A DNA stretch of 5,956 bases from Chloroflexota bacterium. Lineage in GTDB: Bacteria; Chloroflexota; Anaerolineae; Anaerolineales; Villigracilaceae. The notes beneath the pieces were generated by a model, which saw only the letters and a list, made by a program, of their open reading frames with translations, was not told the DNA's origin and did not search any database. Of the stretch, positions 3,055 to 5,956 are shown piece by piece. The stretch's first letter is position 1. Every line of letters starts with the position of its first letter. Made by a program: the position numbers and the translations under genes. The DNA is taken from contig JAMDBC010000147.1 in assembly GCA_023484185.1 (NCBI GenBank), positions 1 through 5,956 of the forward strand, given 5' to 3'.

Positions 3055-3079
3055 TGTAATGGACCCCAAAAATTGGACA
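3055..3079 (+). repeat. Left inverted repeat of the IS (transposase 3' side)
   Basis: It begins TGTAATGGACCCC and ends TTGGACA. It matches the complement of the right end at 21 of 25 positions, differing at positions 5, 13, 14 and 19. Confidence 0.88.
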
Positions 3080-3094
3080 GTTTTTTAGTGATTC

Positions 3095-3936
3095 TTAGGG
3101 GGTACCCTGCTCCAACTGAGCGAGCTGCCAGGCGGCCTCGAACTCAGCGGGCGTCAGATATCCCAAGGCAGAGTGAATACGCTTCGTCATGTACACGTCC
3201 TCGATGAAACGTCCAATCTGCTGATAAGCGTCATGATAATCCTGATAGTCGGAAAGGTCTACCTCCTCTTCTTTGATGGTTCTCATTAACCGTTCGGCGT
3301 AGCCGTTCTCTTCGGGCTTACCTTGTGTCGCCATACTGATCTGAATGCCCAATGGTCTTAACACCTCGGTGTACGCTTGTGAGGCATATTGAATCCCTTG
3401 ATCACTGTGATGGATTTCAGGAATACACAAACTCAGGGCGCGCCGTAGAGCCACCAAGGTCAGATCCACATCCAAACTATGGCTCAGGTTCCAACCGCGG
3501 ATAGCCCGAGTAAAAACATCCAACACGATTGCCAGGAAAACGAATCCTTGGCCAAGACGTACATACGTAATGTCGCAGACCCAAACTTGCTCTGGCCGAA
3601 TGATCTCCAGATCGGTCACCAGGTTGGGATAGCGTGGGTAGGGATGTGTGTGCTGTCGGTGGTGCAATATTTGGCCCGTTTTACGGGGCGCAACAGCCTT
3701 TTCTGGCGCATGAGCCGCCGGATCCGCTTGCGGTTGATCCGGTAGTGATAAGGCGCTCGTCGCAGTTGATGTGTGACCCGCCGCGTTCCGTATTTCGGAT
3801 ACTGCCTGGCCACTGTCTCCACATCGGCACCGAGCTGACCCTCCTCCAGTCGATGCGATCGATAATAATACGTGCTGCGCGAAATGCCCATACAGTCACA
3901 GGCTATTTTCACCGAACAGCTTTGATCAGCCATCAC
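3095..3936 (-). pseudogene. IS3-family transposase OrfB (DDE integrase), frameshifted
   Basis: OrfB supplies the RNase H-like catalytic domain of the transposase. The upstream part, from a GTG at 3936, contains the HTH_21-like region (CMGISRSTYYYR, then YPKYGTRRVTHQLRR and INRKRIRRLMRQKRL). It is interrupted near 3645. The remaining frame down to the stop at 3095-3097 carries the catalytic triad: Asp in VCDITYVRL (codon at 3574-3572), Asp in IHHSDQGIQYAS, and Glu in ENGYAERLMRTIK with the expected D-35-E spacing. The family tail HSALGYLTPAEFE is also present. The expected junction 'CTTDSTHPYPRYPNLV' is split between two frames, and removing one CA from the (CA) run (TGTGTGTG on plus, 3645-3652) restores it. 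The orfB frame also runs upstream through orfA's 3' end to the slippery site. All catalytic residues lie after the break, so this copy should be inactive unless frameshifting corrects it. Confidence 0.88.
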
Positions 3937-3941
3937 TGCCT

Positions 3942-4250
3942 CTACAATGGATCGCCGTTCTTGCGCAACGAGCTGGCATAGCTCAACACTTTTTTTGAGA
4001 CCTCCACTTGCATGGTCAGACGGCCGACCATGCGCTCCAGCTCAGCGATACGCACATCTTTCTCCTGATCGTCTTGCGGCTGCTCGAAGATCTCCGTGGC
4101 CCGTTCCAAGAATTCCTGCTTCCAGCGCGACAGCACTGTATCTTTGATCTGATATTCGCGACCGGCTTCGGCTAAACTTTTCTTCCCACCGATCAGTTCC
4201 AGCACAACCTTGACCTTAAACTCGGCACTGAACTTCCTGCGTGACACCAT
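3942..4250 (-). CDS. IS3-family transposase OrfA (helix-turn-helix, coiled coil)
   Basis: This 102-residue DNA-binding subunit recognises the IS ends. Residues 7-48 (FSAEFKVKVVLELI...SLAEAGREYQIKDTVLSRWKQEF) form the transposase_8-type helix-turn-helix with the usual Trp43. Residues about 64-90 (VRIAELERMVGRLTMQVEV) form the leucine-zipper coiled coil. The ATG at 4250-4248 has GAGG 6 bases upstream (4257-4260). The length and layout are normal and the frame is intact. It overlaps the upstream extension of the orfB frame. At S85-K86-K87 the ribosome can slip by -1 to make the OrfAB transposase; without slipping it stops at 3942. Confidence 0.92.
   Translation of the reverse strand: MVSRRKFSAEFKVKVVLELIGGKKSLAEAGREYQIKDTVLSRWKQEFLERATEIFEQPQDDQEKDVRIAELERMVGRLTMQVEVSKKVLSYASSLRKNGDPL
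3970..3996 (-). promoter_or_regulatory. Programmed -1 frameshift signal: A7 slippery heptamer plus stem-loop
   Basis: On the minus strand, A7 (3996-3990) sits in the orfA frame as TCA AAA AAA, i.e. the canonical X XXY YYZ register. A -1 slip gives AAA AAA AGT GTT GAG and continues through VELCQLVAQERRSIVEAVMADQ into orfB with no stop. Five bases downstream is a small stem-loop, GAGCT-loop-AGCTC (3984-3970), of the kind that stimulates slippage. This is the standard IS3-family control on transposase production. Confidence 0.8.
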
Positions 4251-4266
4251 TCTGGACCTCGTTTCT

Positions 4267-4283
4267 GGGTAGCCATTCTACCC
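4267..4283 (-). promoter_or_regulatory. Hairpin in the transposase leader
   Basis: GGGTAG (4267-4272) and CTACCC (4278-4283) form a perfect 6-bp stem with a 5-base loop, between the right inverted repeat and the orfA Shine-Dalgarno at 4257-4260. Hairpins placed like this in other insertion sequences limit translation from transcripts entering from outside. That role here is inferred from position alone. Confidence 0.4.
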
Positions 4284-4292
4284 TAAGCATGG

Positions 4293-4317
4293 TGTCCAGT
4301 TTTATGGGTCCACTACA
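4293..4317 (-). repeat. Right inverted repeat of the IS (transposase 5' side)
   Basis: Read on the minus strand from 4317 it begins TGTAGTGGACCC and ends CTGGACA. The first bases also create the TAG stop of the truncated DUF2971 gene. Confidence 0.88.
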
Positions 4318-4801
4318 ACTTCTCATACAGCCGTTCTTTCTTGTAATCTATATATTTCACTTTACCTATAAGTAACTCATCAGAATTTGGCAGACTTTCT
4401 CGAAGACGCTTAAATGTGGATTTGATTGCCACTGCCTCATTCGTCTGAGCATAAAGTCTCCACATTGCAGCCGATTCATATTCTTTCATATACCAAGAAT
4501 TGATATTTGTGAAGTGTTTTAAGAGCTTGATTCCCTTGGATATGTCAGTAAGATCTGCCTGCGTTTTTGCATATCCCATTATTCCCTCAACAATTTTGCG
4601 CCTATAAAAATCACTTTTCCAAAAATCAACATCTACTTCAGTTGACGATCCCTCAAAAGGATCTTCCAGACCGTCAGCACGACACAAAAAGAGACTTGCC
4701 TTATCTAACACAGAAACAAACTTCGTGAAATCCATGTAGCGCCAAATGGTGCTTTGTTCATCTTGGACTGGGAATGGAACAGTGGGCATTTCTTCTGACA
4801 T
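4313..4801 (-). pseudogene. DUF2971 family protein, C-terminus lost to the IS
   Basis: The surviving frame encodes about 162 residues that match the N-terminal half or more of DUF2971 proteins: IWRYMDFTKFVSVLDKASLF, then CRADGLEDPFEGSS, then SAAMWRLYAQTNEAVAIKST and IGKVKYIDYKKE. Family members are usually about 250-300 residues and continue with a conserved 'KR..FEHE.E.R' region, which is missing. The final Leu codon is shared with the IS end, and the TAG stop (4315-4313) lies wholly inside it. I prefer the ATG at 4801 (GAGGG at 4810-4806, 4-5 bases away) over an in-frame TTG at 4825 with no ribosome site. It follows the RuvB-like/HNH gene by 29 bases, so the two were probably one operon. 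The function of DUF2971 is not established; members are often seen in accessory and defence-type regions. Confidence 0.82.
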
Positions 4802-4830
4802 ATATCCCTCAATAGTTTGATTCAAAATAT

Positions 4831-5748
4831 CTATGCAATATTACTGCTTTTTTTCCTGTTGCACGACTCGCAAAGTAGCTGAAGGTTACGCGCCGTATTG
4901 CTTCCCCCTTTTGACACAGGAATTATATGGTCAAATTCTAAGTTGTTTTGGTTACCACATATGGCACATTTACCTTGGTCTCTTTTCCAGACAAACATCT
5001 TGACGTCATCAGGAATAGGCTGTCTTCCTTTTGGAAAGGGCTTATTTACGCGGCCCAAAACGGCTAACGCGTCTCTTGTAACTGGCTGAGTTATCTGTCC
5101 AGCCGTATAAGCCAAAGCGTACTTTTGTATTCTTCCGAGCAAAGTCAATGCCTGGCTCGAATTTCCGTTGCAATACTGAGCCATTAAATTGGCCGTATCT
5201 GCGTCAAGAACAAAGCCTTGTTGCTTAGCTAATGACACTATTATCTGACCAATCTCAAGGACATGATATGGAGTAAAGTCATACACTAACATCAACGTGC
5301 TTAGCCGCTGGTCTACTTGCGAAAGTTTAGAAGTTGTTCCAATTATTGTGAAACGAGGAAGTTTCAATCTAATACTACGAGCTGACGATCCCTTTCCTAT
5401 AACTATATCAAGAGCAAATTCTTCCGCGGCGGAAACCATCACTTCAATCACTGGCTTACGCATTGACTCAATTTGTTGGACTAACAAAATATCCCCAGCG
5501 CGTAAATTTGTGAGAATTGCAGCGATGTCATTCACCTTATCAATGCTTGGACCAGACACAATTTTGATATTGACCCCCATTTCATTAGCCACGACATTAG
5601 CTACGGTAGTTTTGCCAAGACCAGAAGGCCCGTGAAAAAGTATATGGTCAAGGGCCTCACTCCTTCTACGCGCTCCAGTGATTAGGATAGAGAGATTTTC
5701 CCTAATTGAATCCTGACCAATTATGTCCGAGAGATGTTTCAGTTCCAT
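4831..5748 (-). CDS. RuvB-like AAA+ module fused to a C-terminal HNH endonuclease
   Basis: This is a complete 305-residue protein. Residues 1-160 are a clear RuvB relative: LSDIIGQDSIRENL, Walker A GPSGLGKTT (40-48), ANEMGVNIKIVSGPSID, DIAAILTNLRAGDILL and FALDIVIGKGSSARSIRL (111-128). The last is the beta-hairpin that in RuvB contacts RuvA. Residues 161-233 resemble the RuvB lid. RuvB's winged helix is absent; instead residues 242-305 form an HNH nuclease with Cys261-x2-Cys264, FDHI (Asp273-His274), Asn288, and Cys293-x2-Cys296-Asn297. The HNH set looks intact. The ATPase looks dead: Walker B reads LLVQQIES (Gln91-Gln92 for Asp-Glu), the GTPR sensor 2 arginine is replaced (GNSS), and the 'LRDRFG' arginine-finger motif is VDQRLSTL. 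The ATG at 5748 has an AGGGAAG-type ribosome site close upstream. The gene starts 15 bases after a DUF2905 gene. A Holliday-junction- or RuvA-directed nuclease is inference. Confidence 0.9.
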   Translation of the reverse strand: MELKHLSDIIGQDSIRENLSILITGARRRSEALDHILFHGPSGLGKTTVANVVANEMGVNIKIVSGPSIDKVNDIAAILTNLRAGDILLVQQIESMRKPVIEVMVSAAEEFALDIVIGKGSSARSIRLKLPRFTIIGTTSKLSQVDQRLSTLMLVYDFTPYHVLEIGQIIVSLAKQQGFVLDADTANLMAQYCNGNSSQALTLLGRIQKYALAYTAGQITQPVTRDALAVLGRVNKPFPKGRQPIPDDVKMFVWKRDQGKCAICGNQNNLEFDHIIPVSKGGSNTARNLQLLCESCNRKKSSNIA

Positions 5749-5763
5749 TTTTCTTCCCTATTC

Positions 5764-5956
5764 CTATTTTTTCCACAAACGCACTATCAAATTCAATATA
5801 ATCGTCAACATCACTGAGACTAAAATCGAACTCGTGACCGGAAAATAAAACGAGCCATTCCTGCCTTCGATGTGAATATCTCCGGGCAAATGTCCGAGCG
5901 GGATGCCGAATTTCGCTGCGAAGTAAATTCCGCCGCCCATTAAAAGCAGGATGATA
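5764..5956 (-). CDS. DUF2905 family small membrane protein, C-terminal part (runs off the right edge)
   Basis: The frame enters at 5956 and stops at TAG (5766-5764), giving 63 residues plus a partial codon; the start is outside the window. It begins with a hydrophobic segment (IILLLMGGGIYFAA), followed by the family signature GHLPGDIHIEGRNGSFYFPV and a second hydrophobic segment (SSILVSVMLTIILNLIV) ending in basic RLWKK. This two-segment layout with 'LPGDI.IEG...FYFP' is characteristic of DUF2905. The family is only about 70 residues long, so very little is missing. Its function is unknown. From memory, DUF2905 genes often lie next to ruvB in bacterial ruvCAB loci, which makes the RuvB-like gene 15 bases downstream notable. 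They are probably co-transcribed. Confidence 0.87.
   Translation of the reverse strand, partial: IILLLMGGGIYFAAKFGIPLGHLPGDIHIEGRNGSFYFPVTSSILVSVMLTIILNLIVRLWKK

Follow-up and report, generated by a model that had tools for sequence, protein, structure and literature searches.

RuvB, the closest described relative of the protein considered here, is commonly treated as a single-purpose motor. According to PMC10071043, every RuvB subunit of the P. aeruginosa complex has a RuvA domain III that captures it, and the same source reports that alanine at the arginine finger abolishes branch migration. PMC9477746 describes binding of RuvA domain III to helix alpha3 and the presensor-1 hairpin of RuvB, and gives roles for Lys65, Thr66, Asp110, Arg171 and Arg218 in that paper's numbering.

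We analyzed a stretch of DNA of 5,956 nucleotides, referred to here as the window, in which a single gene couples a RuvB-like AAA+ core to an HNH nuclease domain (Table 1). This fusion had been observed in an earlier note made from the sequence, and our analysis confirms that it is real.

Table 1. Features of the fusion gene and its immediate neighbors, with positions in the window
Feature	Position	Strand	Evidence
DUF2905 gene, 5' part off the window	5764..5955	-	Pfam 3.8e-20; 3' of native ruvB in relatives
RuvB-like AAA+ core and HNH nuclease fusion, 305 aa	4831..5748	-	ORF, Pfam, homologues with both domains
RuvB-derived AAA+ large and small domains, residues 4-232	5053..5739	-	Pfam, curated models, structures, predicted model
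Walker A GPSGLGKTT, residues 40-48, intact in the window protein	5605..5631	-	Sequence, family alignment
Walker B position, Q91-Q92 instead of Asp-Glu	5473..5478	-	Sequence, family alignment
Presensor-1 hairpin, residues 113-133, retained; equivalent of RuvB's RuvA domain III contact (PMC9477746)	5350..5412	-	Block retention, alignment
Arginine-finger position, L152 instead of Arg	5293..5295	-	Family alignment
Sensor-2 position, S198 instead of Arg	5155..5157	-	Family alignment
Flexible linker, residues 234-241	5026..5049	-	pLDDT <50 in predicted model
HNH module, residues 242-305	4834..5025	-	Pfam, cassette search, predicted model
PADLOC PDC-S31-like ORF, just downstream of the fusion	4313..4825	-	PDC-S31 3.3e-15; Pfam DUF2971 0.0018, under cut-off

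Architecture of the fusion protein

In Pfam searches, the RuvB P-loop domain (PF05496) matched residues 4-148 of the window protein at 5.9e-52 and HNH (PF01844) matched residues 261-302 at 5.4e-14, with the RuvB lid giving a weak match, under its cut-off, at residues 161-231. The winged helix (PF05491) gave no match at E<=1 in the window protein and the HNH module stands in its place; for comparison, the native ruvB product of locus L134 matched the winged-helix profile at 3.6e-25. Both curated RuvB models ended their matches at residue 231-232 and scored the window protein below their cut-offs (TIGR00635, 202.3 against 299.05 bits; NF000868, 212.5 against 282 bits). The best solved relatives by sequence were RuvB chains, which cover residues 4-234 at most. 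A model predicted from a 50-row alignment had a mean pLDDT of 90.1 and was confident for the core and the HNH part, with a floppy linker between them. The predicted core superposed on RuvB, a structural comparison (VIA list) that bears on the core, barely covers the HNH part and excludes no fold family for it. The HNH part modelled alone, without an alignment, reached a pLDDT of 47.3 and was discarded. The earlier note had claimed a RuvB-derived core with its RuvA-contact hairpin, the absence of the winged helix and a complete HNH module where that domain should be, and each of these descriptions agrees with the profiles and the alignment.

Recurrence of the fusion

RuvB_N and HNH occurred together in 65 of the 120 best matches listed, the window's own included. 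Five carried the same kind of core without HNH, and the remaining 50 were ordinary RuvB by their listed domains. With such recurrence the fusion is therefore no assembly artefact, and a chimera is ruled out by the presence of the same junction in many proteins and in the assembled genome G638. Fifty fusions were aligned, comprising 49 of the 65 together with P0168 from the HNH-cassette search; the 16 left out were near copies, fragments, or simply not taken. The aligned proteins were 41-62% identical to the window protein over their whole length. Where the listed fusions are named by a source, NCBI has 'HNH endonuclease [Anaerolineales/Anaerolineae bacterium]' and JGI a RuvB name or 'hypothetical protein'; for several of them JGI gives 'Holliday junction DNA helicase RuvB', a function that they very probably do not have.

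Some fusions have extra N-terminal parts, including Cys repeats that look zinc-ribbon-like by eye (P0012, P0016 and others), a TPR part in P0045, and in P0057 and P0059 a domain resembling, by eye beside P0130, that of short HNH proteins. The family comes mostly from uncultured bacteria and is apparently undescribed. The earlier note knew of no protein with this architecture; we found no description of one in open-licence PubMed Central, where absence is not proof, and in PMC7824862 the mentions of RuvB and of HNH are unrelated to each other. The parts are known, and it is their recurrent combination that we found described nowhere in that collection.

Free-standing degenerate RuvB cores with neither winged helix nor HNH were also seen, nine of them among the matches listed (P0058, P0063, P0064, P0066, P0067 and P0224-P0227). 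They are 238-254 aa long, except for P0058, which has 321 with an upstream extension, and some of them may be cut off by contig ends. To the eye, the extension of P0058 is similar to DUF2905 read out of frame, so this protein also seems to sit behind DUF2905.

Loss of motor residues

Motor residues were compared with a set of 84 native RuvBs, made up of four database proteins and 80 proteins from the loci of a genome contig scan, in which each of the 80 loci listed matched only residues 3-232. All 84 natives had the motor residue at every position compared. In the 50 aligned fusions the Walker A Lys was kept in 48, the Walker A Thr/Ser in 27, the Walker B Asp in 15, the Walker B Glu in 18, the arginine finger in three and the sensor-2 Arg in none. 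Some members may still bind or hydrolyze ATP, because both Walker A and Walker B are intact in eight of the 50; the full set of Walker A Lys and Thr/Ser, Walker B Asp-Glu, finger and sensor-2 Arg was found in none. The window protein keeps K46 and T47 and has the replacements given in Table 1 at the other sites. Across the 50 fusions, retention at native-invariant columns was 57%.

The earlier note had read the core as a branch-migration-type module, and this is not borne out. Since the ATPase residues that drive branch migration are lost in the window protein and in nearly all of its relatives, the sequence suggests that the window protein is most likely a pseudo-ATPase adaptor and not a motor coupled to a nuclease. 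An ATP-driven RuvB-type motor joined to a nuclease would fit the intact Walker A of the window protein, and also P0057, in which Walker A, Walker B and the finger are preserved and sensor 2 is a Lys. We nevertheless regard it as highly improbable in view of the QQ at Walker B, the missing finger and sensor 2 in the window protein, the lack of a complete residue set anywhere among the 50, and the absence of the winged helix that grips DNA.

Retention of the RuvA-contact hairpin

The presensor-1 hairpin was the best-kept motif block in the fusions, with a retention of 0.83 at native-conserved columns, a value that 3% of blocks of the same length reach. Helix alpha3 (our assignment, the third helix of the model) had a retention of 0.79, with 12% of blocks as high, and the finger helix 0.24. 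At the two hairpin positions that we take to correspond, in numbering and role, to I148 and I150 of E. coli RuvB, all 50 fusions were hydrophobic at both, and the Arg between them was kept in 22. At the level of sequence, this retention is suggestive and consistent with docking on RuvA, the block statistic ignoring burial, and it could be structural, as part of the fold.

A long branch with full support divides the tree of the cores, with 47 fusions and the five HNH-less forms together on one side. On the other side, P0057, P0068 and P0069 fell among natives, P0057 among those of Chloroflexota and P0068 and P0069 near those of Firmicutes. Several independent origins of the fusion are not claimed, as one clade of all 55 rows was not rejected (p-AU 0.39) and long branches meet.

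The HNH cassette

Seven HNH residues (C261, C264, D273, H274, N288, C293 and N297) were invariant in all 50 aligned fusions, and with its Cys, His and Asn residues the domain of the window protein is predicted to cleave. A search with window residues 236-305 returned 1526 proteins within the allowed length range, and 102 of the best 120 listed lacked the RuvB domain. Forty of these RuvB-less proteins were fetched and had several different N-termini. Such proteins (PF01844/PF14279; a few are named McrA-like by a source) have in common with the fusion a cassette of some 65 residues at the C-terminus, with identities of up to 86%, and differ in their N-terminal parts. A strongly conserved cassette was seen behind many different N-termini throughout P0121-P0223, P0168 excepted; for P0122, Pfam gave no TPR match at E<=0.01. 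The cassette looks like a widely shuffled nuclease module.

The cassette of the window protein was 83-86% identical to that of P0122-type proteins, and 63-82% (median 72%) identical to the 65 RuvB-type cassettes. A single clade of all RuvB-type cassettes was rejected (p-AU 0.024, on only 65 columns). A swap of the HNH in the window lineage is favored by the cassette tree (support 95/88), whereas its placement with the main RuvB-type group, assessed after six divergent rows had been dropped, was not rejected (p-AU 0.41), and the swap is not claimed.

Distribution and genomic neighborhood

The fusion profile was run on overlapping draws of 16, 396, 400, 152 and 400 genomes, with only four candidates per genome scored in the draw of 396 and both draws of 400, and only 12 in that of 152. 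The fusion was found in one of the drawn genomes, G638 (496.8 bits); the next highest score, 305.6 bits in G049, came from the RuvB part of the profile only. The HNH-less form gave 31 matches in 400 genomes of the order, namely the G638 fusion and 30 others at 254.9-261.6 bits, one of which (L137) is by eye a native RuvB with winged helix, the rest being judged native by score and frame length. Only one such HNH cassette, the fusion's own, was present in G638, and the cassette was found in two of 21 other genomes searched. None of 87 phage records and none of 88 plasmid records covered 80% of the query. Of 43 viral loci, 42 had a match that starts no earlier than residue 198 and consists mostly of the HNH; the remaining one matched a piece of the AAA core.

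In the window, the DUF2905 gene ends 15 bp before the ATG of the fusion. On the other side, the 3' end of the PDC-S31/DUF2971-like ORF is apparently interrupted by an IS3 element, the boundary being set by eye. This IS3-family element (window 3060-4312) comprises orfA at 3942-4250, a transposase part at 3095-3667 and an other-frame piece at 3616-3936. Its transposase is apparently frame-broken, and it has imperfect end repeats by eye, a repeat search having found none of 15 or more. Further away, the forward strand encodes a class I fructose-bisphosphate aldolase (609-1709; NF006707, 637 bits), and the reverse strand a radical SAM protein (1989-2915; PF04055). No Rfam family was found in the window at gathering scores and no tRNA gene was found; a promoter scan of 4250-5956 found two, where 3.5 are expected.

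Context beyond the window is known from one genome, G638, whose fusion is 56% identical to that of the window and whose fructose-bisphosphate aldolase is 85% identical. There (L134), the order is an intact ruvB, a small ORF with the toxin gene TumE, DUF2905, the fusion, DUF2971 on the other strand, a nucleotidyltransferase, HEPN and queA. The fusion starts 9 bp behind DUF2905, and the order of these two genes is the same in the window. G638 also has ruvC and ruvA, about 0.6 kb apart and on another contig than the fusion. The earlier note had offered an alternative resolvase as one possible role; as a substitute this is not supported for G638, the one genome available, where ruvA, ruvB and ruvC are all present.

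We surveyed 70 loci that have a native ruvB and a title of Chloroflexota type (L001-L073, leaving out L060, L067 and L068). By a script rule, queA lay within 3 kb downstream of ruvB in 43 of the 58 loci with room, and in nine more it overlapped the ruvB match by 3-25 bp; DUF2905 was within 600 bp of ruvB in 23 of 64. Ten of the longer gaps between ruvB and queA were read, and eight ORFs from five of them were run against Pfam. In L004 the gap held a restriction enzyme of EcoO109I type and a DNA methylase, in L016 a nucleotidyltransferase with a HepT-like protein, in L005 TumE behind an ORF with no match, in L027 an IS200-like transposase, and in L026 nothing with a Pfam match. In two genomes a similar small ORF and TumE lie directly 3' of ruvB, at L134:2498-3185 and L005:6977-7661 (Pfam 3.3e-21 and 1.4e-21). 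Given these variable contents and its own position, the fusion resembles a duplicate of ruvB that lies next to ruvB, at a site where the cargo varies.

Possible functions

The reading that we favor, which is plausible while still short of probable, is that the fusion, carried as accessory cargo at the ruvB-queA locus, is a pseudo-RuvB adaptor which would dock on RuvA, or on RuvB rings, and so deliver an HNH nuclease to branched DNA. A ruvB duplicate would have lost its ATPase residues and the winged helix while keeping the surface by which RuvA domain III captures RuvB, and would have gained a mobile HNH cassette, joined to it by a short flexible linker. Through its presensor-1 hairpin, the fusion could then be captured by RuvA on a Holliday junction or reversed fork or, alternatively, by a RuvB ring in which a subunit place is free. 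Walker A may still hold nucleotide, with no pumping of DNA by the fusion itself, and the HNH would nick the DNA arm against which the protein is held. Carried next to ruvB, it would probably serve to damage or restrict DNA that is undergoing recombination or replication restart, or else to process the intermediates that arise there.

We infer docking on RuvA, nuclease activity, substrate and biological role from several lines of evidence, namely the domains and the model, the loss of motor residues, the retained hairpin with hydrophobic residues at the I148/I150 equivalents, the papers on RuvA domain III, the invariant HNH, the intact neighboring ruvB, and the presence of RuvA and RuvC in G638. 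Against such an adaptor, the HNH-less sister group may mean that the core is useful without a nuclease. The occurrence of the cassette behind many other N-termini weakens a specific role in cutting junctions, and a cargo site that holds restriction-modification and toxin genes in relatives suits a defense role as well. Of the interpretation given in the earlier note, the RuvB core, hairpin, missing winged helix, HNH and recurrence are supported, and the motor and, for G638, the substitute resolvase are not; defense, selfish and junction-cutting roles are all candidates.

A role as a defense or addiction effector, with the core as a nucleotide-bound sensor or oligomer scaffold, perhaps guarding RuvAB, and the HNH as killer domain, the whole carried at the ruvB-queA cargo site along with toxin-antitoxin genes, is in our estimation rather unlikely. 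TumE, nucleotidyltransferase, HEPN and DUF2971 genes surround the fusion in L134, the ruvB-queA gaps of relatives without the fusion hold the enzymes, toxin gene and transposase listed above, and the neighbor in the window resembles PDC-S31. A cassette common to many N-termini and the additional zinc-ribbon-like or TPR parts of some fusions would also fit. However, no PADLOC model matched the whole fusion (the best, at 1.7e-05, covered HNH or P-loop parts only), only a single genome shows toxin genes beside a fusion, where they may have arrived independently, and the kept RuvA-contact surface is unexplained unless RuvAB is guarded.

It is less likely still that the fusion inhibits or modulates RuvAB, a motor-dead subunit poisoning or tuning RuvB rings by occupying RuvA domain III with the HNH being secondary. 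Missing catalytic residues beside a retained hairpin, the HNH-less sister group and the operon-like place behind ruvB and DUF2905 in G638 are what such a protein might show, but the key HNH residues are invariant in every aligned fusion, and a cassette better conserved relative to the window than the whole protein is hard to explain if the HNH were dispensable. The chances are also poor, and slightly poorer, for a ruvB duplicate in decay, its core under no selected function, that carries an HNH cassette of a promiscuous or selfish kind. The many other N-termini that carry the cassette, the rejected single clade of RuvB-type cassettes, the closeness of the window cassette to the P0122 type and the long branches in the core tree all point that way. 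Selection is nevertheless indicated by open frames, by the retention of native-invariant columns and by a hairpin kept across 50 such divergent proteins, and grouping of the window cassette with RuvB-type cassettes was not rejected.

Extended to the whole family, the adaptor that we favor would make these proteins RuvA-guided nucleases, in which a motor-dead RuvB paralogue competes with RuvB for loading by RuvA on Holliday junctions or reversed forks, and an exchangeable HNH cuts where RuvB would migrate the branch. We put this forward as a doubtful but tenable proposal. If it is true, this would suggest that RuvA can be a loading platform for other enzymes, and the family would offer a convenient way to ask whether the recognition of junctions serves cutting, defense or control.

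Comparison with known systems

The window protein shares with RuvB the AAA+ large and small domains, Walker A and the presensor-1 hairpin, and is 48% identical to the RuvB of G638 over 231 aligned residues. It differs in lacking Walker B, finger and sensor 2, in having HNH for the winged helix, and in missing the cut-offs of both RuvB models. With the RuvC resolvase it would share its proposed action on RuvA-bound junctions; the fold of RuvC is unrelated to that of the fusion, and G638 has a RuvC in addition to the fusion. In design, the closest analogue is the human annealing helicase ZRANB3/AH2, in which a fork-remodelling type of ATPase also carries an HNH. ZRANB3 is a eukaryotic protein with an SNF2 motor and an active ATPase that remodels forks. 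The HNH domains of the two match weakly (5mkw_A, E 0.0072), and the likeness is one of analogy, not of kinship of the whole protein.
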